Shown one piece after another: positions 4,775 to 20,672 of a DNA stretch of 21,243 bases. The notes beneath the pieces were generated by a model, which was not told where the DNA came from, did not search any database, and worked only from the letters and a program-made list of their open reading frames with translations. The position numbers were made by a program, and so were the translations under genes. Each line of letters begins with the position of its first letter. The first letter of the stretch is position 1. The stretch is from positions 1 to 21,243 of IMG/VR virus record IMGVR_UViG_3300045611_000186. The stretch is one strand, 5' to 3'. The stretch comes from a virus.

Positions 4775-6295
4775 TTATCTAATTTTTTCACCTTCAAATT
4801 TTACCCGTGCAATTAAATAGGGTATTTCTACACTTGCATCCAATACTGAATGGTATAAATCTATTGCTACTTGTTTACCTCTACCTAATAAATTTGAATT
4901 TAAAAATCGTGTTTGACCTGAAGCCCTATATAAACCTACTCTATATAATGCTACTCTATATAACGCAATATCCGCATCTAAACTTAAAGATGATGTCTTT
5001 GCATCTGAAACTTCTGTTCCTGTCCCATACCAATAATCAAAGTATAAAGAAAAGGATGATGATGATGCCTCATGTGATATAATTCCTTCTAATTGGCGAA
5101 GTGCCTTATTTCTATTAGCATCCTTAAAATATAAAAATGGGAATGAATATTGAAAACTTATAGCTGTGCCATCATCATTTGTCCCTGAATTCATTGTATA
5201 TACATATCCATTTCCACCCACAAGCATTGTCCCATCTATCCTTTCACAAAAAGAATGACAATTATATCCAGACCATACACCGACAATATTTTTAACATCC
5301 AACGAATAAACCAATATTTTATGTCCGCTTGTCAATGGAAGACCAATATATAAATGATTTAATTTATGAGAAAATGCTACTGAGATTAACATTTTATTTG
5401 TCAAACCAGCAATCGTATCTCTATAATAAGGAGCAATATATTTACTCAAATCATCTACATCTAAATCTTGATTAGTTAATGAAGAACGAAAACCATTTAT
5501 GCCTTCTAATGAACATATTGCTAAATCATTTCCTACAACCTGTATTCCATGAGTTGAAACACAATTTAATGGAATAATCTGTTGAAGCGTAAATCCTGTT
5601 GGGTCAGTTCCACAGGTATAAATAATAATATGTTTTTTAAATACAAAACATAAAAATACACTTGAAAATGTAGCAAATCCTATTAAGGTATCTCCAAAAG
5701 GAAGAATTTTTGAAAAATCAAGATTTCCTGCATCACTTGTCGCGCTCCATGAATCTGAGGCATTAGCAGAATCTGTCTTTGAATAATATGCCTTCATAGG
5801 ATTTGCTGCTGAATTAAGCCATACTTTATGTTGATGGACATGGATTGCACTTGCATCCGTAGGCATAGAAGCGTCACTGGATAAATTCGCTACTGCGTAA
5901 GCTGATGTGCATTTACGGGGTGTCCCACCATCAACCATAATTAACTCATTACCAAACATTACAGTTTGCCCTCTATTTCCATCAATCCTTCCAGTATCCA
6001 AATCATCAAAACTATCCGTCCCGTCATATTTAGCCCACCGAGTGCCTTCTCTTATTATTACATCAGTGCCACCAGCATTCCATTTAGCTTCATAGATATA
6101 CTTACAGGCATTAGTAAAATCTACTGTATTAAATTTAGCTATTCCAGCTCGCTGTTTTATAGTTCCAAGTCCAGTCTTAACATCTTTTTTAATATAACCA
6201 TTAGAAATCATCCATGCAAATTCAGGAGACATATTAAGTCTATCTGATAATCTATTCATTCCTCTAAAGTCTTGGTATACAAATGATTTTAACAT
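4775..6295 (-). CDS. Tail nozzle / DNA-stabilisation-like protein (T7 gp12 or P22 gp10 type)
   Basis: 506 residues, beta-rich, with many short strands and recurring blocks that read like propeller blades, for example IREGTRWAKYDG, GNELIMVDGG, VHQHKVWLNSA, GNDLAICSLEG and KLNHLYIGLPL. This pattern is typical of the proteins that close the portal channel and form the tail nozzle in podoviruses. Position supports it: directly after the adaptor-like gene and before the fibre. The ATG shares one base with the upstream TAA (TAATG), suggesting reinitiation. Near residues 440-460 is a short tandem repeat, ALYRVALYRVGLYRA. The assignment rests on fold-like pattern and context rather than a signature motif. 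Confidence 0.65.
   Translation of the reverse strand: MLKSFVYQDFRGMNRLSDRLNMSPEFAWMISNGYIKKDVKTGLGTIKQRAGIAKFNTVDFTNACKYIYEAKWNAGGTDVIIREGTRWAKYDGTDSFDDLDTGRIDGNRGQTVMFGNELIMVDGGTPRKCTSAYAVANLSSDASMPTDASAIHVHQHKVWLNSAANPMKAYYSKTDSANASDSWSATSDAGNLDFSKILPFGDTLIGFATFSSVFLCFVFKKHIIIYTCGTDPTGFTLQQIIPLNCVSTHGIQVVGNDLAICSLEGINGFRSSLTNQDLDVDDLSKYIAPYYRDTIAGLTNKMLISVAFSHKLNHLYIGLPLTSGHKILVYSLDVKNIVGVWSGYNCHSFCERIDGTMLVGGNGYVYTMNSGTNDDGTAISFQYSFPFLYFKDANRNKALRQLEGIISHEASSSSFSLYFDYWYGTGTEVSDAKTSSLSLDADIALYRVALYRVGLYRASGQTRFLNSNLLGRGKQVAIDLYHSVLDASVEIPYLIARVKFEGEKIR
4926..4970 (-). repeat. Three tandem 15-base repeats (LYRxx) in the nozzle-like gene
   Basis: Plus-strand units ctatataaacctact (4926-4940), ctatataatgctact (4941-4955) and ctatataacgcaata (4956-4970) code for LYRVA-LYRVG-LYRAS-like pentapeptides. 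Confidence 0.75.
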
Positions 6296-7002
6296 TAGAA
6301 TATAAATGTAACTCTTGGTTTTAATAAAGGCGAAGAATGTATCCTCTTCATTTTATCTAAACTACCTTCAATATCTTTTCCATCTCCAAATACCTGTATT
6401 TTATAAACTATTGCCTCATCACTACCTAAATAAGTTAAAACCTTTAATGTCGCAAGTGCTACAAGTAAAATCCTATCAAATGGTTCTGGGATTTCACTTG
6501 TTCCTGTTGTTGTTCCCGTAGAATAATATGTCGGATATTTCCAATATCTAAAATCTATATTTTTTCCATTTTGTGTCGTAGTTGCTTGTTTATCAACAAT
6601 AAATTGCCCTATGAATTTAGTAAAATAATCTGGATAACCAGTCATAGCAGTTGTAATACCTTTAGGATATAGGGCATCCCATTCTTGCGGAGTTTTAAAA
6701 ATAAGATTTTTATCACTATCAGATTGTTTAAAACTTTCTCTATCTTCCATCATTAAATCAGAACCAGTTGAAAGAACTGTTATTGTATAAGCATAATTTC
6801 CAGTCGTCATAGGTATAACGCCTATCTTTTCTAAAAAGTCCCAGCGGGTATTCTCATCCATACATATATCTTGTAATGCTTCAGTGAGTTTATTCCACGC
6901 TACAAGTTGTATTCCTGTTAAACCAGTTAAAACTGATACAGTCGGTTCACCAATATTTCTTAAAATTTCATTCATTATCTCAAGTGCTTGAAGTTTAGCC
7001 AT
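6295..7002 (-). CDS. Tail tubular/adaptor-like head-tail connector protein (T7 gp11-like)
   Basis: 235 residues. The N-terminus, ALEIMNEILRNIGEPTVSVL followed by a long helix and DICMDENTRWDFLEK, matches the pattern of podovirus tail tubular protein A: a helix with N..L..IGE.PV..L, a second helix, then W-x-F. These adaptor proteins form the dodecameric ring under the portal and bind the nozzle. The nozzle-like gene follows immediately (TAATG overlap). AGAGG stands 6 bases before the ATG, 2 bases after the upstream stop. No enzymatic motif is expected. Other head-completion families share a similar helical start, so the exact homologue is uncertain. Confidence 0.7.
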   Translation of the reverse strand: MAKLQALEIMNEILRNIGEPTVSVLTGLTGIQLVAWNKLTEALQDICMDENTRWDFLEKIGVIPMTTGNYAYTITVLSTGSDLMMEDRESFKQSDSDKNLIFKTPQEWDALYPKGITTAMTGYPDYFTKFIGQFIVDKQATTTQNGKNIDFRYWKYPTYYSTGTTTGTSEIPEPFDRILLVALATLKVLTYLGSDEAIVYKIQVFGDGKDIEGSLDKMKRIHSSPLLKPRVTFIF

Positions 7003-7004
7003 AT

Positions 7005-7889
7005 TTACCTCTTATGCCCGAAACTCATTAAGATATTATTTTTTTCTTCAAATTGCTTACTCTGTGAATTAGAAATAAGCATTGAAAGAAGTTTTATCTC
7101 ATTACCTATATCTTCCCTCATCTTTTTTATATCATCGGATTTTGCATTTATATCAGATGTTCGCTTTTGAAACTCGTCAATCTTACTTAACAATCCATCA
7201 ATACGAGAGAAAATGTCCTGCATTTTTAAAATCTGCTCTCTTAATCCACTTGTTTTCTGGTCAAACATCCTTGCCAAAGTAGCCTGTGCCTTATTCATCA
7301 TCATTACTAAATTATTAAGGGTAGTTTTCTGTTCTGAAGGAAGGAAGTCTATTTTATTTGTCATATTATTTATATTATTCCCAAATGATGAAAGGGTTGT
7401 TTTAATATCATTCATTACATTATCAGGCACAGATACATTTATAGATAATGCCTTTCTAATATCATCTATCTTTATGCCTTCTTTTTTACTGATACTTATA
7501 ATTATCTCGCCTAATGAATTTATTATGCCTTTTAATTCAGTTATTTTGTCTGTAAGAGTTGCATAAAAATCTGCTTGATTTCTCAATATATTCCAGATAA
7601 GCCGTATATGGTCTGTCTCATCCTGTATTGAGTTTAATTGAGAAAGTGTCTCCTCTACCCCATATCTCGGAGTTCCTTCTCCTGTATCCCAAAGTATAAT
7701 CCCATCAAATCCCTCATCTATCGTAGCGTAAACAGCATAAATTCCTGTTGAAGTGCCGACTTCAAAAATGCCTGTTGTAGCACGAGCCTGTTTTATAGTA
7801 TTATTTTTATTATAAAGTGTATAACCAATTGTTGAAAGTCCTGCTTTAGAAGCACCAAAATTTACTACAAATAATCTACTTGTAGCCAT
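7005..7889 (-). CDS. Virion-associated protein: N-terminal beta domain plus long coiled coil
   Basis: 294 residues. Residues 1-75 form a beta-rich domain (GYTLYNKNNTIKQARATTGIFEVG, then YAVYATIDEGFDGIILWDTG). From about residue 80 to the C-terminus the protein is almost entirely helical with heptad-like Leu/Ile spacing and many KxxI and NNI repeats, so a long coiled coil is likely. The layout suits a neck, whisker or tail-associated structural protein. It lies between the methyltransferase cassette and the adaptor gene and shares TAATG with the upstream stop, with GGAG just before. No family I can name with confidence. Confidence 0.6.
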   Translation of the reverse strand: MATSRLFVVNFGASKAGLSTIGYTLYNKNNTIKQARATTGIFEVGTSTGIYAVYATIDEGFDGIILWDTGEGTPRYGVEETLSQLNSIQDETDHIRLIWNILRNQADFYATLTDKITELKGIINSLGEIIISISKKEGIKIDDIRKALSINVSVPDNVMNDIKTTLSSFGNNINNMTNKIDFLPSEQKTTLNNLVMMMNKAQATLARMFDQKTSGLREQILKMQDIFSRIDGLLSKIDEFQKRTSDINAKSDDIKKMREDIGNEIKLLSMLISNSQSKQFEEKNNILMSFGHKR

Positions 7890-8593
7890 TATTCACTCCT
7901 TTGAGCAATTAAATGATATGTATTCCATGCCATAAAACGCTGTTCTAAATTCTTATGGCATAAAACTATCTTAAATCCTAATATATCTAAAACTCTTTTA
8001 ATCTGCCTTTCGCTAAAAAATAGCCATTTTGTCTTTGAGTCCCAGTTACCAAAATTAAACATCCCAATTTTATAAATGAGTTCTCCATCAGGAGATATAA
8101 GCATAAGTATTCCCTTTGGATTTAAAAGTTCTTTTGCCTTATAAAGTGCTTTTATAGGATTATGAAAACTCTCCAAAACCTGACTCATAAGTATAAAATC
8201 ATATTTTTCTTTAAATTTATGTTCTTCAAAATCTCCTACAATATATTTATTATAAATAAGGTCAATACCATTTGTAAGCCATCCCCGCTCAGATAGATTT
8301 TCAATATGATAATTTACTCCAAAGCCTACATCTAAAAATTTTCTGCCATAAGTAAGTTCCTCTATTATAGGTAAATATATCCTTTCAATATATTCGTATC
8401 TCTCTTTTATTCCTTTCCAACCTGAATAATTTTTAAGATAATCTTCATTAAAGCCCTTTTTATCTATAAGTTTCTGGTGAAATACGCTTCCGCATGAGCA
8501 GAAAATCCATTCAGTTTTTTCTGCATCTGCAATTACAAAAGATAATTTACATTCAGTATCACATGCAGGACATTTAATTCCTTCCAATAACAT
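7889..8593 (-). CDS. Class I SAM-dependent methyltransferase with N-terminal Cys pair
   Basis: 234 residues. The N-terminus has CPAC at residues 8-11 and CSCG near residue 32, a likely small zinc site. The SAM domain follows: FLDVGFGV around residue 88 (motif I), an acidic strand end GIDLIYN, then YDFILMSQVLESFHNPIKAL, LLNPKGILMLISPDGE and a C-terminal helix-strand. This is the Methyltransf_11/23-like pattern common in sugar and small-molecule methyltransferases. It is a diverged paralogue of the methyltransferase at 9915-10709 (shared NPIKAL / DPIKAL and LLN.KG). It starts 20 bases inside the end of the preceding GT9 gene with AAAGGG upstream. The substrate is unknown; the GT9 partner suggests a glycan. 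Confidence 0.82.
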   Translation of the reverse strand: MLLEGIKCPACDTECKLSFVIADAEKTEWIFCSCGSVFHQKLIDKKGFNEDYLKNYSGWKGIKERYEYIERIYLPIIEELTYGRKFLDVGFGVNYHIENLSERGWLTNGIDLIYNKYIVGDFEEHKFKEKYDFILMSQVLESFHNPIKALYKAKELLNPKGILMLISPDGELIYKIGMFNFGNWDSKTKWLFFSERQIKRVLDILGFKIVLCHKNLEQRFMAWNTYHLIAQRSE

Positions 8594-9611
8594 CTTTAAC
8601 CCTTTCGTAAATATCTTCTGGTCTCATACAATCCTTACTCATACATAAACAGGCACTACTTTCAGGTTCAAGTATACATTGAATTGACGCATCAGAAATA
8701 AGCCGAAAACAAGGTGCGCAAATAGCTGAACTCTCAATAGAATAGTCTTCAGTAAAATGCTTTGTAATATTCTCTTTAGTAGAATGCGTTAAAAGCCCTA
8801 TCTTAGGTGTATCCCAGCACCCAGCACCATGCAAAAAGCCCGTATCAGGTGAAATTACTAAATCTGCATATTTAGCCATTAAGATTGATTGGCGTATATT
8901 AAATTCTCCTGATTTTTTAAGGATGCGTTTATGATTAGGAAATCCTGCCTCTAAAATTTTACAGGTCTCACCACCTACTAAAATTATTATTACATTTTTC
9001 ATTTCTCTCATAATATCACCTACTATATAAGGAACATATGGATAGGTTTTCTGCCTTCCTGAACCAGATAATCCCCACATAATAATCTTATTTCCAAGAT
9101 ATTGTTGTCTTATATTTAATATAAAATCCTCTTCTTCTTCAGTAAAAAACATCGCTGGTCTATAAAATTTATTTTCTGATATAGGAAATTTTTTCCATTC
9201 ATCCATAGACAAATTAATTTCTCCGCCTATTTGACTTCTTGCAATCTCAAATGTCCATTCATAATAATTCTTATTGCAATATTCTCTTCGTTCCTTCTTT
9301 GTCCAATTCCATTGTGGATAATCTGGAGATAAAGCAAGTCTCACCTCTATACTCTCACAAAGATTTATTACCTTTTCACATTCATTATCCTTTTGTATCT
9401 TATTAAAATATTCATCAAGTTTATCATTTGCTATACTATTTCTTTTATGATAGATGAATTTATCTATATTAGGATTATTTTCTAAAATCTCTTTTGCCTG
9501 TTCACTCCCAAGATAATAAATCTCATTACCTTGACTTTTAAGATAGCGGATTAGAGGGGTTGTTATAAGAATATCCCCATATGCGGCAATTCTGACTATA
9601 AGTATTCTCAT
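8574..9611 (-). CDS. Glycosyltransferase family 9 (heptosyltransferase-like)
   Basis: 345 residues in the GT-B heptosyltransferase pattern. The N-terminus MRILIVRIAAYGDILITTPL has the G-D-I-L..TPL loop of this family. The NPNIDKFIYH segment is typical of its first domain. The C-terminal nucleotide-sugar-binding half has ADLVISPDTGFLHGAGCWDTPKIGL, matching the family's D-T-G-x-x-H-x-A element. After that comes a Cys-rich tail (SAICAPCF, then several more Cys) shared with the GT9 at 10684. The family moves heptose or related sugars from ADP-sugars during LPS core synthesis; here the sugar and acceptor are unknown. The start shares ATGA with the upstream zinc-protein stop. The gene sits between head and tail genes. 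Confidence 0.85.
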   Translation of the reverse strand: MRILIVRIAAYGDILITTPLIRYLKSQGNEIYYLGSEQAKEILENNPNIDKFIYHKRNSIANDKLDEYFNKIQKDNECEKVINLCESIEVRLALSPDYPQWNWTKKERREYCNKNYYEWTFEIARSQIGGEINLSMDEWKKFPISENKFYRPAMFFTEEEEDFILNIRQQYLGNKIIMWGLSGSGRQKTYPYVPYIVGDIMREMKNVIIILVGGETCKILEAGFPNHKRILKKSGEFNIRQSILMAKYADLVISPDTGFLHGAGCWDTPKIGLLTHSTKENITKHFTEDYSIESSAICAPCFRLISDASIQCILEPESSACLCMSKDCMRPEDIYERVKDVIGRN

Positions 9612-9943
9612 ACTATTATCTTTTGTTTTTTAAGATTAAAAAATAATCTTTCACCTAATCTTGCCCACTTCTCATTTTCTTTTTTCTGATGTAATAATAC
9701 CCGCCTATGATATTCCTCGCAATGGCTTGAACCACAATGGACTTTTTCAGGCACACCATTAAAAGCAAACTGTATATTATCTCCCCACTCATCACATTCA
9801 GAAACATCAAAGGTAAACCATTTGCCACAATAATCACATCTTTTATCAATAGAGCGGTTTCCATCCTTCTCAAATTGATATCCTAAAAATAATTCTTTCT
9901 CTGGGTCAATCTTTTTATATTTTGTCGTTATTATTATCGCCAT
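9608..9943 (-). CDS. Small zinc-binding-like protein of unknown function
   Basis: 111 residues. CDYCGKWF near residue 36, a lone Cys near 49 and CGSSHCEEYHRR near 70 give a C-x2-C ... C-x4-C-x3-H set that probably holds one or two zinc ions. The C-terminus is basic. GAGGAAAA precedes the ATG, which lies 29 bases inside the end of the upstream methyltransferase gene, so it is translated as part of the cassette. No function is recognised; it could be an accessory or acceptor-binding factor for the flanking enzymes, or an unrelated phage zinc-ribbon protein. Confidence 0.7.
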   Translation of the reverse strand: MAIIITTKYKKIDPEKELFLGYQFEKDGNRSIDKRCDYCGKWFTFDVSECDEWGDNIQFAFNGVPEKVHCGSSHCEEYHRRVLLHQKKENEKWARLGERLFFNLKKQKIIV

Positions 9944-10709
9944 TTTTCCTCAAAATTATATTAAAATCTCCTGAAAGGTTATTAAAATATACTCCAGATA
10001 TGCGTCTATTATATTCAAGATTAAATCCTTTCTCTAAACACACATCTATAAATGAGTCCATATCCCATAAAATATGATGTTCTTTCACTACCCAATGTGC
10101 CCATTGTAAAGGATTATTCCAGGGAATAAAATATGGGTCAGGCATAGCTATAAATAAAAATCCTTTTAGATTTAAAAGATTATAACATTTCTCTAATGCT
10201 TTAATTGGGTCTTTAAAATGTTCAAATATATGGCTTGCCCAGATACAATCAAATTTGTCTTTTATTTCTACTTCCTCAAAATTGCCTTGTATTATTTTAT
10301 ATTTGGAATCTCTATTGATATAATCAATAGCTGAAGGAATCCATCCCATTTTTTCAGCTTCTATCAATAAATCATCTCTAATTGAACCTATCTCAAAAAA
10401 TGTCTTTATATTATGTTTAAACATTGGAAAATAAAAATCTGCTTGTCTTTTATAAGTATCAGTAATAATAGTTTTATATTTCTCTGTATATTTATCATTA
10501 TAAACACTGAAACTTATATTTTTCCAATTTGTAAAAAATATATTCTTACAATTACAAAATGAGTATCCTTTATCATTGACTATTTTCATATTTAACTCAT
10601 TAGTATTTTCTAATCCCTTAACAATTATTTCCTGTGTCATTCCGCAAAGAGGACACTCTTGCACATCTTTTATTCCTAATAATTTATACTGTAACAAGCC
10701 TTCGTTCAT
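9915..10709 (-). CDS. Class I SAM-dependent methyltransferase with N-terminal CxxC motif
   Basis: 264 residues. CPLCG at residues 19-23 and C-N-C near residue 52 suggest an N-terminal zinc site, as in the second methyltransferase of the cassette. The SAM domain has FFEIGSIRD (motif I, with GxG weakened to G-S), then SAIDYINRD, FDCIWASHIFEHFKDPIKAL and LLNLKGFLFIAMPDPY. The HIFEH / DPIKAL pattern is typical of Methyltransf_23-type enzymes. The weakened glycine loop means activity should not be assumed. It starts 26 bases inside the end of the first GT9 gene. No clear ribosome binding site precedes ATG 10709, which is consistent with coupling to the upstream gene. Confidence 0.8.
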   Translation of the reverse strand: MNEGLLQYKLLGIKDVQECPLCGMTQEIIVKGLENTNELNMKIVNDKGYSFCNCKNIFFTNWKNISFSVYNDKYTEKYKTIITDTYKRQADFYFPMFKHNIKTFFEIGSIRDDLLIEAEKMGWIPSAIDYINRDSKYKIIQGNFEEVEIKDKFDCIWASHIFEHFKDPIKALEKCYNLLNLKGFLFIAMPDPYFIPWNNPLQWAHWVVKEHHILWDMDSFIDVCLEKGFNLEYNRRISGVYFNNLSGDFNIILRKNGDNNNDKI

Positions 10710-11658
10710 AAATTTGTTTTATTTTATTAATTATATCTACAACATTAAAATATACACATAATGGATTACCATTTTTATGCGGACATCCTCTATATTGATA
10801 TGGCCCTTTATAACAAGGTGAGCAATATGCAGGAGATTGTATACTATAATCATTAGGATTATATTTACAATGGCTTTCTATACTCGCCGCAGTCATAAGC
10901 ATTATTGTTGGAGTATACCACATACTTGCACCTATCATAAGACCAGATTCACAACCTATAACACAATTAACATATTTAGTTATTAAAAGTGCTTGTCTAA
11001 AAGGCATTTTTGCTATAATGCTTGTTACTCCTTCCATTTCTATATTAGGATAATCTGGTGCAGCAGTAACTATAATATGTGAATTATCTATATGTTTAAG
11101 AATAAGATTAATTAGTTGTCTTGCTTGAATAAATCTTTTATGAGGGCCTGTTCCAGCCAGATTTATCATAATCAAAAACTTTCCCTCAAATTTTTTAAGC
11201 CAATCTTTAACAATTTGTTTTTCTTTATCATTATAATAAACTTCACCATTATATTTCCCAGCTAATTCTGGGTATCCTGCCAAATAAGTTGTCTGGTCAT
11301 AGTAATTTATATGCTGGTATCTATTCCTACGAACTTCATTTGACATATAATATAAATTCTCATCTTCCATAGCTAAAAGACCATATTCAAGACTATTTAT
11401 AAGATTTATTACTTTATCATATTCTTCAGCTATTGTTTCCCAATGCTTAATTAACATCCATTCTCTTTTTTGAAATATTACTTCAGGATTTATCCCTTTT
11501 ATATTATCAATATACGGATTTTGAGCTAAAAGTTGATAGCCCTTAAAATTAGTTTCAACATCTACAGTATTAAAACCCACATCTTTTAATAAATGCGGAA
11601 GATGTGACATATGAATAATATCACCATAAGCACCATAACGAAATATAATTGCTTTCAT
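10684..11658 (-). CDS. Glycosyltransferase family 9-like protein (first of two)
   Basis: 324 residues from the ATG at 11658. MKAIIFRYGAYGDIIHMSHL matches the GT9 start pattern. NPYIDNIKG and the C-terminal VIGCESGLMIGASMWYTP match the family's later elements, though the usual D-T-G-x-x-H is replaced by E-S-G-x-M. The tail DYSIQSPAYCSPCYKG aligns with DYSIESSAICAPCFRL in the second GT9, so they are paralogues with a shared Cys cluster. The start codon directly follows the T-tract of a strong terminator and has no ribosome binding site. An open frame continues upstream to 11739 through the terminator, but the family N-terminus begins at this ATG. The altered active-site residues leave enzymatic activity open. 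Confidence 0.8.
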   Translation of the reverse strand: MKAIIFRYGAYGDIIHMSHLPHLLKDVGFNTVDVETNFKGYQLLAQNPYIDNIKGINPEVIFQKREWMLIKHWETIAEEYDKVINLINSLEYGLLAMEDENLYYMSNEVRRNRYQHINYYDQTTYLAGYPELAGKYNGEVYYNDKEKQIVKDWLKKFEGKFLIMINLAGTGPHKRFIQARQLINLILKHIDNSHIIVTAAPDYPNIEMEGVTSIIAKMPFRQALLITKYVNCVIGCESGLMIGASMWYTPTIMLMTAASIESHCKYNPNDYSIQSPAYCSPCYKGPYQYRGCPHKNGNPLCVYFNVVDIINKIKQIYERRLVTV

Positions 11659-11687
11659 AAAAAATGGGGGCTTTGACCCGCCCCCAT
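11659..11687 (-). terminator. Strong rho-independent terminator after the head genes
   Basis: On the coding strand ATGGGGGC - loop GGGTCAAA - GCCCCCAT forms a perfect 8-bp GC-rich stem, followed at once by TTTTT. It begins 5 bases after the stop of the decoration-like gene. Its T-tract ends at the ATG of the first GT9 gene, so it separates the head operon from the GT9/methyltransferase cassette. Confidence 0.85.
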
Positions 11688-11692
11688 AGGTT

Positions 11693-12112
11693 TTAGTTAT
11701 CACCTGTCTGGAATGCTTCTTGATACTGGACAAAAGCATTTACTCTTATAGTAGCTTCAGTTTCAGTTCCTGCAGCTCTTGCAAGAACTACATCATCTCC
11801 TGTATCAAAAGAGGTTGCAGTTAATGAACCATCAATAACACTTGCAGCAGTTTTCGTTCCTGTAAGAGTTATAGTTCCTACTGCTGAAAGCGCTCCAGTT
11901 CCTGCAGCAGATTTACATAAAATCAAATTTGTATCTACAGCAGTCCCTGCTACTACAACTGCCACATTCCAATCAGTAATTCTGATTGGATGCATTGCCG
12001 TAAATGCAGCCTTTGCTGTTGTAGAAGTAACTGTGCCATTTAAAGCAACTCCATTGCCAAGCGCTATAACTTTCTTTGACCCATAAGAAGGGTCAGAATA
12101 TGCTCTACTCAT
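11693..12112 (-). CDS. Probable capsid decoration (head) protein
   Basis: 139 residues, small and beta-rich, with many Ala, Thr, Gly and Val and no charged core, for example GTITLTGTKTAASV and DTNLILCKSAAGTGAL. Small proteins of this type immediately after the major capsid gene often decorate or stabilise the shell. The start is taken at ATG 12112 because GAGGAGGG stands 4 bases upstream; an in-frame ATG at 12130 lies upstream of that site and would include it. The gene follows the capsid stop by 10 bases and is followed by a strong terminator, so it closes the head unit. The family is not certain; head-fibre or minor capsid protein are alternatives. Confidence 0.6.
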   Translation of the reverse strand: MSRAYSDPSYGSKKVIALGNGVALNGTVTSTTAKAAFTAMHPIRITDWNVAVVVAGTAVDTNLILCKSAAGTGALSAVGTITLTGTKTAASVIDGSLTATSFDTGDDVVLARAAGTETEATIRVNAFVQYQEAFQTGDN

Positions 12113-12122
12113 TTTACCCTCC

Positions 12123-13738
12123 TCATGCACTCGTTACATGCACAATGCGTTCAATGCCTTTGCCTGTGGAATTTAAATCATCATTTGTTATATCCCACAT
12201 TTTTTTCCAGCCAAGTATTGCATACCATCCGAGCTTTTTAGAGCGACCTAAATCAGTCTCCTCATATCTAAGCTCTTCAGGTAAGGCTACGGCTTCCACT
12301 ACTGCCTCATCCCCGAAATATAACGCCTCTCCATACGAACTATTTAATACATTAGAGAGGATATTATTTTCAGCGATGTGACGTGCACTATAATACTGTC
12401 CGACTTCATTTTTAAATCTAAATTCTGGTTCAGCATACTGGGCTACTGCTTGGAGAAAATCATATACACCTCTCATTGACTTAACTGAGAGTATACCAAT
12501 ATAATAATCTCCACCCTTAAACTTAGGGACTTGAGCCAGCATTAGATAATCTACAATATCCCTTACATTTTTATCAGAGATATTTGCCCCAGGATTACCA
12601 ATTGCTGTTCCATTAGAGAAAAATGAAGTTGTAGCAGTATTAGTTGCTACTGCCTTAAATTTTGCAGACTGGAATTGAAGAGCGATATTATAATCAATCG
12701 TATCCTTCTGGTCTTGAACCAAACCCTTCTGGTATTTATCCTTCATGTTAAATTCAGCCAGAGTTTCCAATTTCTGCGTATAATTTACGCCATTCCCATA
12801 TTCAGTTACCTGAACGCTATCAGTTGTAAATTTAATAGTATTCATGGGCATGGTTGCTGTTTCCGTGAGAGTCCCGCCCCGTGTATCTATGCGGAGTTGT
12901 TTTACAAAAGGAACTTTATCACCACTATTAGCTCCAAGTCCTTTCTCAGACAAATCCACAAAATTACGGAATACAAATAATGGAGCAGCTTGCTCTCTCA
13001 TCTGCTTTGATAGCTTCGGCGAGGTTAAATCTTAACCTTATATATTTCTATATAAGTTGGACTATATCTTCTCTTTCTTTTAAAAGAGCTTTGCGTATAG
13101 TCTCTGAGGAGCCCCTATTATTCAATCGTCTTATTTCTTCAGCAACGGAAATTTCCTCGTTATTATAAGGAACATCTTTACCCAGTTTCATCTCATTAAA
13201 TCCATCATTTTCCTTAAATTCTCTCCATCGCTTTAAACGTGAATTTATAAACCGTAACATTAACTCGGCTCTGGATTTCTTTGTTATTAAGTAAGGAAGT
13301 AAAGTATCTAACAATTTTTTAACCTTACTTAATGCGTTAACATCGCAAATATAGTAAGGTTTTTTAACTTTATTAGATACCATTCTTCTTATTCTTAATG
13401 GAGCCCCTATTTTCTCGCATATCTTAACTGTTTCCAATATAGAATTATCATCAGTATTGGTAATAGTAAAAAGAGGATTTAATCTTCTAAATCTTTCCTT
13501 TTTACTATTAAATGTAGATATCATAGTTAAGCAACCTTCTCCATCAAAAAATCCAGCAAACCAAGCCAATTCGGTTTCTTTTAGGGTTTCCTGCTGATTG
13601 TCCATTATTTTATCATTCATATTTTCACCTTGGTAGTAATGAATGTTTTAGGAGTTTCCAGCATATAGCAAAGTTTAATGTGGGCATTTAACTATACCCA
13701 CCCAAGCTACCAGTTATCCATACTCCCTGTGCTCCCAT
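12123..13738 (-). CDS. Major capsid protein, split by a group I intron: join(12123..13030, 13696..13738)
   Basis: Exon 1 runs from ATG 13738 (AAAGGA ribosome binding site) to T 13696, coding MGAQGVWITGSLGG plus one base. Exon 2 starts at 13030. Splicing gives GGYLTSPKLSKQMREQAAP and a continuous 316-residue protein. The N-terminal run, G-S-L-G-G-Y-L followed by L-S-K-Q and A-A-P-L-F-V-F-R-N-F, fits the start of HK97-fold major capsid proteins of podovirus-type phages (N4-gp56/P22-like groups, from memory). Exon 2 holds the bulk of the fold, including KMWDITNDDLNS near the C-terminus. The gene follows the scaffold-like gene and precedes the decoration-like gene. Calling the gene from ATG 13001 would lose 24 residues. 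Family assignment is moderate; capsid identity is strong from context. Confidence 0.85.
13031..13695 (-). ncRNA. Group I self-splicing intron (665 nt) in the capsid gene
   Basis: All core helices can be read in coding-strand order. P1 pairs exon-intron UGGGUA (13700-13695) with UGCCCA (13686-13681), with the splice-site U.G wobble after exon base 13696. P3 is CUUUGC (13673-13668) with GCAAAG (13084-13079). P4 is UGCUG (13663-13659) with CAGCA (13596-13592), inside the typical CAAUCAGCAGGAAACC. P5 extension is CAUUCAU with AUGAAUG. P7 is GACUAUA (13092-13086) with UAUAGUC (13066-13060). P8 is CUCUUU with AAAGAG. P9 is CUUAUAUA-GAAA-UAUAUAAG (13056-13037). P10 is GUUAAAU (13692-13686) with exon-2 AUUUAAC (13030-13024). 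The last intron base is G 13031. The endonuclease gene is inserted in the P6 region. Confidence 0.95.
13048..13620 (-). CDS. Intron-encoded LAGLIDADG homing endonuclease
   Basis: 190 residues with a single LAGLIDADG motif, LAWFAGFFDGEG at about residues 18-29, whose acidic residues (the D and E of FDGEG) would hold the catalytic metal. The usual later element, LLDTLLPYLITKKSRAELMLRFI, is present. One-motif enzymes act as homodimers and cut intron-lacking alleles so that the intron is copied in; some also help folding. The ATG has AGGTG upstream. The frame begins in the P5 stem region and ends (TAG) in P9, so both ends of the protein are coded by catalytic intron sequence. The target is expected to be the intronless capsid gene at the GGT-GGG-T|AT-TTA junction. 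Intactness suggests recent activity. Confidence 0.92.
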   Translation of the reverse strand: MNDKIMDNQQETLKETELAWFAGFFDGEGCLTMISTFNSKKERFRRLNPLFTITNTDDNSILETVKICEKIGAPLRIRRMVSNKVKKPYYICDVNALSKVKKLLDTLLPYLITKKSRAELMLRFINSRLKRWREFKENDGFNEMKLGKDVPYNNEEISVAEEIRRLNNRGSSETIRKALLKEREDIVQLI

Positions 13739-19093: not shown

Positions 19094-19493
19094 TATCAAA
19101 CTCCAATAGTCTATTATTTGTCTGGACTTCGCCCATTTTGGTAAATTTTATCTCGCCTGTAATATCTAAATGTTGTTTAAGTTTTCCTGTTAATTCATAA
19201 TAGGTCCTTATTGCTTGCACATCTTTATCTATAATTGCGCCCAATAAAGCATAAGGCGGAATTGCGGCATTTTCACCTAATACGCTAAAACATAAATTCG
19301 CAAACCACAGTCTAAAATCACTATTTGTTCTATAAGCATAATAGAATTTGCCTGGGTCAATATTCGTTAACTGTGATGCTCGTGATTTATTTCCTTTAAC
19401 ATCTGGCAATATAAGAGCTTGACAGAATCGCTCTAAATCTTTTGAGGGTTGATAATTCTTTAATATTTCAGTTAATTTTGGTGGCCTTGGCAT
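19062..19493 (-). CDS. terS: Probable terminase small subunit
   Basis: 143 residues. The N-terminal half is helical with a helix-turn-helix-like segment (KGNKSRASQLTNIDPGKFYYAYRTNSDF), the layout used by small terminases to bind pac/cos DNA. DVQAIRTYYELTGKLKQH near residue 100 is a pattern seen in small-terminase-like proteins (A-x-R-x-Y-x-E-L-x-G). The gene lies directly before terL and overlaps it, the standard order. It starts 26 bases inside the end of the methyltransferase gene, with GGAG about 11 bases upstream. The identification rests on the motif pattern and its position. Confidence 0.8.
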   Translation of the reverse strand: MPRPPKLTEILKNYQPSKDLERFCQALILPDVKGNKSRASQLTNIDPGKFYYAYRTNSDFRLWFANLCFSVLGENAAIPPYALLGAIIDKDVQAIRTYYELTGKLKQHLDITGEIKFTKMGEVQTNNRLLEFDIGELNTSRNS

Positions 19494-20634
19494 TTATATA
19501 TTTCTCCCAACGGTCTATGATTACTTGGCAAAACTGCGGAGATATTTCTATAACTCTGCATTTTCTATTATTTTTCTCACAAGTAATTAAGGTTGTTCCA
19601 CTTCCGCCAAAAGGTTCATAAACAATATCATCTCTATTGGTATGATTAAGTAATAACTTCTCAAAAAGTTCTAAAGGCTTCTGTGTTGGATGTATATTAT
19701 TCTTCTTTTTTCTATCAATATTAAAAACAGTTCCTTGATTGCTCGGCACATTGTCTATAATCTGCTCCCCCTCACGCCTTGCAATAAAAATTAATTCGTG
19801 TTGCTGTTGGTATCTTGCTCCTGGCCAGAAACAAAAGTTTTGCTTGCACCAAATCAATAAATCTATTGTTTCAAAATCTAATTTTTCACAAGTCAAAACA
19901 TAGGGATGTAATTGTTTGTCAGCATAAGTCATTATTAAAACATCACTTGGTAAAATAGACATAAATCCATAAAGTAATTCATCTGCATTTTTTGGGTCTT
20001 GATAACTCGCAAGCGTTTCGGATACTTTTTCTTTTCTGCTTTTGTAATTGACTGAATAAGGTGGGTCAGTAAGACATATTCTTGCCTTCTCTCCCTGTAT
20101 CAGTTTTTCAACATCTTCCCTTTTCGTCGCATCCCCACATAACAACCTATGTTCTCCCAATTTAAACATATCCCCTAACTTTATATCCGTTGTTCTTGCC
20201 TCCGGCACATCGTCATCTTCAGGTCTTGTATCTAACTGAAATATTCTGTCCAATTCCTTGCTCTCAAATCCTACATCCTTAAGCAATTCCTCATCAAAAT
20301 TAGCCAGTAAATCAAAATCCCATTCCCCTAAGTTCTTATTAAGCCGTAAGTTAAGCTCTCTTTCTTTTTCTATTTCAGGCACATTCACATACACACAAGG
20401 CACTTTTCTTCTTCCCATATCTTTTAAAACTCTTAAGCGAAAATGACCCCCTATTACTATATTAAATCTATTAGGTGCAGAGTTAATTATAATAGGGTCT
20501 ACTATACCAAATCTTTCTATGGATTTTTCTAAATCTTCATATTCTTTTTGAGTAGCTTGTCTTGGATTATATTCGGCTGGCTTTAAATCGCTTATATCAA
20601 GTTGGATAATTTCAATATTTTCTGTCTCTTTCAT
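19468..20634 (-). CDS. ParB-like domain fused to a beta-class DNA methyltransferase
   Basis: 388 residues from ATG 20634. Residues 8-100 form a ParB/sulfiredoxin-like domain (ISDLKPAEYNPR; IVIGGHFRLRVL at about 58-70). Residues about 150-388 are an amino-methyltransferase with DPPY at 190-193, HPTQKP at 315-320 and the SAM loop FGGSGTT at 342-348. The order DPPY before FGGSG marks the beta class, which methylates adenine N6 or cytosine N4. The fusion is common in phages next to terminase genes, where it may protect phage DNA or mark packaging sites. An in-frame TTG at 20652 would add six residues, but it lies in a terminator-like hairpin. The family start fits the ATG, which lacks a ribosome binding site. 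Confidence 0.92.
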   Translation of the reverse strand: MKETENIEIIQLDISDLKPAEYNPRQATQKEYEDLEKSIERFGIVDPIIINSAPNRFNIVIGGHFRLRVLKDMGRRKVPCVYVNVPEIEKERELNLRLNKNLGEWDFDLLANFDEELLKDVGFESKELDRIFQLDTRPEDDDVPEARTTDIKLGDMFKLGEHRLLCGDATKREDVEKLIQGEKARICLTDPPYSVNYKSRKEKVSETLASYQDPKNADELLYGFMSILPSDVLIMTYADKQLHPYVLTCEKLDFETIDLLIWCKQNFCFWPGARYQQQHELIFIARREGEQIIDNVPSNQGTVFNIDRKKKNNIHPTQKPLELFEKLLLNHTNRDDIVYEPFGGSGTTLITCEKNNRKCRVIEISPQFCQVIIDRWEKYINAKATKIN

Positions 20635-20641
20635 AAATAAT

Positions 20642-20672
20642 AAAAAACTCAAGCGCCGTTTCCAGCTTCGAG
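20642..20672 (-). terminator. Terminator-like hairpin just before the methyltransferase start
   Basis: On the coding strand CTC-(G bulge)-AAGC, a 10-base loop and GCTTGAG form a 7-bp stem with one bulged base, followed by TTTTTT and further T-rich sequence. It ends 8 bases before ATG 20634. It could end the transcript of the lipoprotein gene or act as an attenuator. Confidence 0.45.

Follow-up and report, generated by a model that had tools for sequence, protein, structure and literature searches.

A capsid-linked glycosyltransferase and methyltransferase cassette as a candidate virion-glycosylation module in a tailed phage

The virus record IMGVR_UViG_3300045611_000186 (positions 1 to 21,243, the whole 21.2-kb stretch being termed the window) carries a five-gene cassette at 7889–11658 on the minus strand. 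In order of transcription, the cassette encodes a slot-1 glycosyltransferase of family GT9 (GT9-1), a methyltransferase (MT-1), a small Cys/His protein (the Zn protein), a slot-2 glycosyltransferase (GT9-2) and a second methyltransferase (MT-2). The evidence leans, by a little, towards a capsid-linked virion-glycosylation module whose enzymes would place methylated sugars of the heptose type on a capsid, decoration or tail protein. The SU10-type portal, Terminase_3 and SU10-type adaptor indicated a tailed phage. A preliminary description of this DNA had placed the five genes, in the order given, between head and tail genes, and all five open reading frames (ORFs) were confirmed on the minus strand. 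Capsid and decoration-like genes lie upstream, a neck-like protein and the adaptor downstream, and from GT9-1 to the neck gene the adjacent ORFs abut or overlap without gaps.

The arrangement was found to recur beside the capsid gene of other phages. A scan of viral contigs with a GT9 profile yielded 66 loci (numbered with the prefix L). The order in L006 was capsid, Zn protein, GT9, methyltransferase, neck, adaptor and tail, and in L007, L008 and L011 a methyltransferase-GT9 fusion was followed by the Zn protein, GT9, methyltransferase and adaptor, with the capsid gene upstream in L008 and L011. Zn protein, GT9 and methyltransferase were also consecutive in L004 and L005, where extra genes, one of them GT4-like, were inserted between the capsid gene and the Zn protein. 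The same three genes, including a GT9-2 homologue with 56% identity, were present on a 3.7-kb contig of an Omnitrophota metagenome-assembled genome (L145); phage contigs are frequently misbinned, and this genome is therefore only a weak hint of the host. A search anchored on the capsid gene covered 30 non-redundant environmental loci that extend 6 kb or more downstream of it, and a GT9 was detected within those 6 kb in 24 of them; this proportion is inflated by the first capsid profile, which had been built from GT9-linked capsids. All 60 GT9s were downstream of the capsid gene and none upstream, with 422 kb scanned upstream and 385 kb downstream. A repeat scan, with a profile from the capsids of cassette-less cultured phages, retrieved a GT9 in 5 of 18 loci, again downstream, which indicates that the trait is patchy. 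This asymmetry supports the view that the placement inside the virion module, noted earlier, is no accident, and the occurrences in other phages were not confined to unlinked single insertions. The tblastn searches of GT9-1, GT9-2 and a methyltransferase-GT9 fusion against 50,697 phage records gave no match, and the Zn protein showed no similarity to the CxxC protein of L001.

The ratios of nonsynonymous to synonymous substitution (dN/dS) for GT9 were 0.06–0.15 in close pairs and 0.3 in one diverged pair, with values of 0.12 for the methyltransferase, 0.02 for the Zn protein (L007 vs L011) and 0.04–0.12 for the capsid protein. These values point to purifying selection on the cassette genes, comparable to that on the capsid gene. 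In L011, an HNH endonuclease gene (10753–11424) was inserted at the junction of the slot-2 GT9 and the methyltransferase.

The score of GT9-2 against the Pfam family PF01075 (25.9 bits) was over the cut-off of 22 and that of GT9-1 (16.2 bits) was under it. The fold comparison was made with the predicted model of GT9-2 only, with a mean predicted local distance difference test score (pLDDT) of 95, and the nearest structures were 3tov, WaaF (1psw) and WaaC (Z 26.0 to 21.8), followed by TibC, other GT-B enzymes scoring about 15 or less. The features shared with WaaC, WaaF and 3tov are the GT-B fold, an N-terminal Gly-Asp pair containing the catalytic-base Asp, and a phosphate-site Lys. In the alignment of phage GT9s, Gly12-Asp13 was present in 85 of 85 and Lys188 in 81 of 85, both being kept in GT9-1 and GT9-2; Asp13 is presumably the catalytic base and Lys188 the phosphate-binding residue, roles that we carry over from WaaC. 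The phage enzymes differ from these three in their phage location, the lack of lipopolysaccharide (LPS) genes nearby, the phage-specific Glu89 and Lys270, and frequent fusion to a methyltransferase. Four C-terminal Cys residues (C298, C301, C312 and C323 in GT9-2) were nearly invariant in phage GT9s and were also found in bacterial GT9s of the same group; the Cys-rich tail motif previously noted as common to the two window enzymes was present as EDYSIESSAICAPC and NDYSIQSPAYCSPC.

TibC is a protein heptosyltransferase that requires a four-Cys iron finger, any change of a finger Cys abolishing its activity (PMC4358343). GT9-2 shares with TibC and AAH, the bacterial autotransporter heptosyltransferases (BAHTs), the catalytic-domain fold (Z 20.2 over 268 residues, 3.3 Å), and with TibC a putative metal finger, C-x2-C-x(n)-C-x(n)-C, of similar spacing (TibC 339, 342, 358 and 370). 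In contrast to TibC, it has no N-terminal beta-barrel (TibC residues 1–97): the alignment begins at TibC residue 97, and the catalytic domain's first strand already stands at the start of the GT9-2 model. For this reason GT9-2 was not classed as a BAHT, and no autotransporter substrate was recognised in the window. TibC was not retrieved by a sequence-profile search. GT9-2 may work like a BAHT. A structure search of predicted viral proteins revealed distant GT9-like phage proteins, one of them annotated Aah/TibC. Besides these matches, a subunit of the plant chloroplast NDH-PSI supercomplex (7wff_a, 9grx_1, 7f9o_6) showed a strong GT9-like fold against the GT9-2 model (Z about 20–21), and in L061 three consecutive GT9 domains were found in one protein of 914 amino acids (8876–11617).

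Both window methyltransferases exceeded the Methyltransf_23 cut-off. The N-terminal Cys pair and PIKAL segment ascribed to both in the preliminary description were present (CPxC; HNPIKAL and KDPIKAL), and CPxC near the N-terminus together with CxC was conserved in the alignment of window-type methyltransferases. The MT-2 model was nearest to the zinc-ribbon sugar C-methyltransferases MtmC, TcaB9 and KijD1, with which it shares the zinc ribbon and class I Rossmann domain, aligned over residues 5–234. The window enzymes differ in lacking the domain that follows about residue 267 at the C-terminus, with lengths of 234 and 264 amino acids compared with about 394–419. A methyltransferase accompanied GT9 in 33 of 43 non-redundant capsid-linked GT9 loci and was fused to it in 21. 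The fusions varied in order (methyltransferase N-terminal in L009 and L011, C-terminal in L017 and L093) and involved different families, Methyltransf_11/23 and FkbM, and such repeated fusion in differing orders points to a single shared pathway. The methylated sugar suggested earlier as the product agrees with the methyltransferase fold. A second GT9 clade (L024–L054), partly fused to FkbM on either end (L030, L028), was located among tail-like genes in the loci inspected.

The sugar donor would be ADP-heptose, as suggested by the GT9 fold and by GmhA-like genes in some relatives. Such a gene lies between two GT9s in L110 (TIGR00441, E 1.1e-48) and upstream of the capsid gene in the L135/L138–L140 group, to judge from the ORFs still inside the head module; GmhA-like matches were obtained in 7 of 44 GT9-bearing records and in none of 6 records without a detected GT9. 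Other islands at the same spot encode GT4, PIG-L deacetylase, hexapeptide acyltransferase and nucleotide-sugar dehydrogenase, and in view of these varied sugar genes the glycan probably differs between phages. In the proposed mechanism, GT9-2 would move an ADP-heptose-type sugar to a virion protein in the cytoplasm of the infected cell, the acceptor being one of the proteins that the same late operon supplies (capsid, decoration or tail protein). GT9-1 would work in sequence with GT9-2 or on another site, the zinc-ribbon methyltransferases would methylate the sugar before or after transfer, and the small Cys/His protein would be an accessory, possibly aiding the choice of acceptor; the order of steps and the role of the Zn protein are those that we infer for the module. 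A virion protein is favoured as the acceptor by position and late-operon context. Between L007 and L011, whose neighbouring genes are 95–99% identical, the slot-2 GT9 retained only 62% amino acid identity and the tail genes diverged too, a pattern that, in this one pair, would fit a glycan important in host contact. The slot-2 GT9 (L007 1671–2666, L011 9759–10778) looks exchanged.

Several observations, together with the inflated capsid-anchored count, weigh against virion glycosylation by this module. In the phages PTXU04 and Bas95 of E. coli, 219E41.1 and 1.232.O of Vibrio, BS162P1 of Bacteroides and GiJojo of Streptomyces, the capsid gene is followed mostly by short genes and by no annotated GT9, and this absence next to the capsid gene of the cultured relatives examined indicates that GT9 is dispensable. 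Most phage GT9s have lost the His found in the bacterial DTGxxH motif, GT9-2 being among those that retain it. Motif I for S-adenosylmethionine (SAM) binding is degenerate in the window methyltransferases (DVGFGVN, EIGSIRD); a canonical motif was present in other islands (L010, L016, L121) and in the fusions L009 and L011. The GmhA-like genes are few (about four lineages), every one scored under the curated cut-off, and those of L001 and L119 are distant from the capsid gene. Ser and Thr make up about 20% of the decoration protein where the locus bears a GT9 and 19% where none was detected; this content did not discriminate between the loci and was dropped as evidence for the acceptor.

Among the other explanations, the best placed, though unlikely, is that the cassette alters a glycan on the host surface, either LPS core or capsule, and thereby prevents superinfection or the re-binding of progeny to receptors. 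GT9s of known function are mostly LPS core heptosyltransferases, WaaF and WaaC are the nearest folds of known function, bacterial homologues occur in ordinary bacterial chromosomes (e.g., Bacteroidota), and the joint divergence of the slot-2 GT9 and tail genes between L007 and L011 would agree with it. However, this explanation leaves the capsid association unaccounted for, GT9 being always downstream and never upstream of the capsid gene in the flanks examined, and the cassette belongs to a late head module, with no flippase or polymerase gene recognised in the window. More improbable still is that the sugar genes are mobile cargo carried at an insertion site that tolerates them, their functions varying by phage and no acceptor being shared. 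The widely varying gene content of the islands, the mostly short genes at this site in cultured relatives and the nearby HNH and LAGLIDADG genes speak for such a cargo, but GT9 is constant, and the methyltransferase nearly so, across diverged phages. It is very improbable that the GT9 and methyltransferase-GT9 proteins are inactive structural or lectin-like virion parts built on reused enzyme folds: the location among head-tail connector genes and the degenerate SAM motifs of several methyltransferases are compatible with this, but the catalytic Asp and Lys are nearly invariant, purifying selection is strong and sugar-synthesis genes adjoin in some relatives. The least probable option, glycosylation of virion DNA at a modified base, has in its favour the precedent of glycosyltransferases of DNA-hypermodifying phages (Pyle et al. 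2024, as cited in PMC12619734) and the presence in the window of a fusion of a ParB N-terminal domain with an N6/N4 DNA methyltransferase (19468–20652, adjoining the terminase genes), but that class of methyltransferase leaves no hydroxyl to glycosylate, no thymidylate-synthase-type enzyme was found in 16 related (partial) records, and DNA, named earlier as a possible acceptor, gained no evidence. A Tet/JBP search was empty, but its control was equally silent and the search was uninformative.

To our knowledge, phage virion glycosylation has been documented for few isolates. The capsid-linked glycosylation module might, more tentatively, represent a widespread and undescribed virion-heptosylation system, in which GT9 and a TcaB9-like methyltransferase, at a constant place immediately after an N4-type capsid gene, would coat uncultivated phages with methylated heptose and would have diversified through GT9 paralogues, methyltransferase-GT9 fusions and local sugar-synthesis genes. 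Virion-glycosylation loci as such are already known. In mycobacteriophage Corndog (cluster O), an O-methyltransferase and glycosyltransferases within the structural operon were proposed to modify the capsid (PMC4351075), and glycans of mycobacteriophage capsids and tail tubes were reported by Freeman et al. 2023, as cited in PMC12619734. The present cassette shares with the Corndog locus the placement of methyltransferase and glycosyltransferase genes inside a structural operon; the Corndog genes, in contrast, lie between the portal and the capsid protease of an unrelated phage group, and their enzymes are not called GT9 in PMC4351075. The literature search retrieved nothing direct on GT9 or ADP-heptose in phage capsids. 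What is new is that, in another phage group, GT9 enzymes follow the capsid gene at a constant position, which points to a GT9-based version of virion glycosylation that many environmental phages would share and whose place is linked to a single capsid family. The chemistry is testable (heptose +192 Da, methyl +14), and, if true, sugar coats on many uncultivated phages would bear on adsorption, immune recognition and the proteomic detection of virions.

The origin of the two GT9-methyltransferase pairs was also evaluated. The paralogues are recognisably related, with 27% identity between GT9-1 and GT9-2 (BLASTP, E 3e-28, 100 bits) and 29% between MT-1 and MT-2 (E 2e-17). In a tree of 56 GT9s, to be read with caution on account of long branches, GT9-1 was one of ten slot-1 GT9s that formed a clade (support 100/99), all of them from phages that have two or more GT9s, and GT9-2 grouped with the slot-2 or single GT9s of other phages. 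A constrained tree pairing the window GT9s as sisters was rejected by the approximately unbiased test (p-AU 0.002). Each copy was nearer to genes of other phages: GT9-1 scored 151 bits against another phage's GT9 (phmmer) compared with the 100 bits to GT9-2, the two values coming from different programs, and MT-1 scored 82 bits against the L006 methyltransferase and 56 against MT-2. The slot-1 GT9s also deviate at conserved sites (His276 to Thr or Ala, Asn281 to Gln). The duplication of a two-gene unit first proposed was thus not supported, a recent one being rejected, and the Cys tail was discarded as evidence for it since the four-Cys finger is family-wide. Judged by their sequences, the window GT9s are members of separate old clades, and the paralogue pairs are genuine.

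The positions of the cassette genes and their neighbours are given in Table 1.

Table 1. Cassette genes and flanking features in the window, in order of transcription.
Feature	Position	Strand	Evidence
Major capsid gene, 5' exon (MGAQGVWITGSLGGYS), interrupted by group I intron	13691..13738	-	Matches N-terminus of L001 capsid protein
Major capsid protein, main exon, N4-type capsid family	12123..13001	-	PHROG 1357 major head protein, E 9.5e-11; 34% identity to L001 capsid
Decoration-like protein, start at ATG after GAGGAGGG	11693..12112	-	Position; same-place homologues in L017, L093, L096, L102, L110, L123, L133
Hairpin and T tract resembling a terminator, after decoration gene and before GT9-1	11664..11687	-	8-pair stem, 6 GC pairs; minimum free energy -17 kcal/mol, z -2.5
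GT9-1, slot-1 clade glycosyltransferase	10684..11658	-	27% identity to GT9-2, E 3e-28; clade 100/99; Asp13, Lys188 and four Cys retained
MT-1, zinc-ribbon type, degenerate SAM motif I EIGSIRDD	9915..10709	-	Methyltransf_23, E 7.8e-12; alignment
Small Cys/His (Zn) protein, RCxxCGK...HCGxxxC, just before GT9-2	9608..9943	-	Conserved in L004–L008, L011, L145; dN/dS 0.02 (L007 vs L011)
GT9-2, slot-2 glycosyltransferase	8574..9611	-	Pfam GT9, 25.9 bits; AlphaFold pLDDT 95; 3tov Z 26.0, WaaF 23.9, WaaC 21.8, TibC 20.2
MT-2, zinc-ribbon type	7889..8593	-	Methyltransf_23, E 5.7e-16; model pLDDT 90; MtmC, TcaB9, KijD1 Z 19.3–20.8
Coiled-coil neck-like structural protein after cassette	7005..7889	-	Homologues in methyltransferase/adaptor gap of L006 and upstream of adaptor in L005
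SU10-type head-tail adaptor	6295..7002	-	SU10_adaptor, E 5e-5 (below cut-off); PHROG 10775 tail protein, E 6e-6

With the terminator-like hairpin ahead of GT9-1, the cassette may be transcribed by read-through, and the enzymes may be produced at lower levels than the capsid protein. A sequence search for solved structures of the capsid family gave no match. The major capsid gene is split by a group I intron encoding a LAGLIDADG endonuclease (13038–13690), with an Rfam Intron_gpI match at 13038–13208 (E 1.5e-6) that is under the family gathering score; in L119, L137 and L146, too, the capsid gene is interrupted by, or lies next to, LAGLIDADG genes. The tail module of the window contains a GNAT-like acetyltransferase (2400–2981), relatives of which follow the tail gene of L007 and L011.

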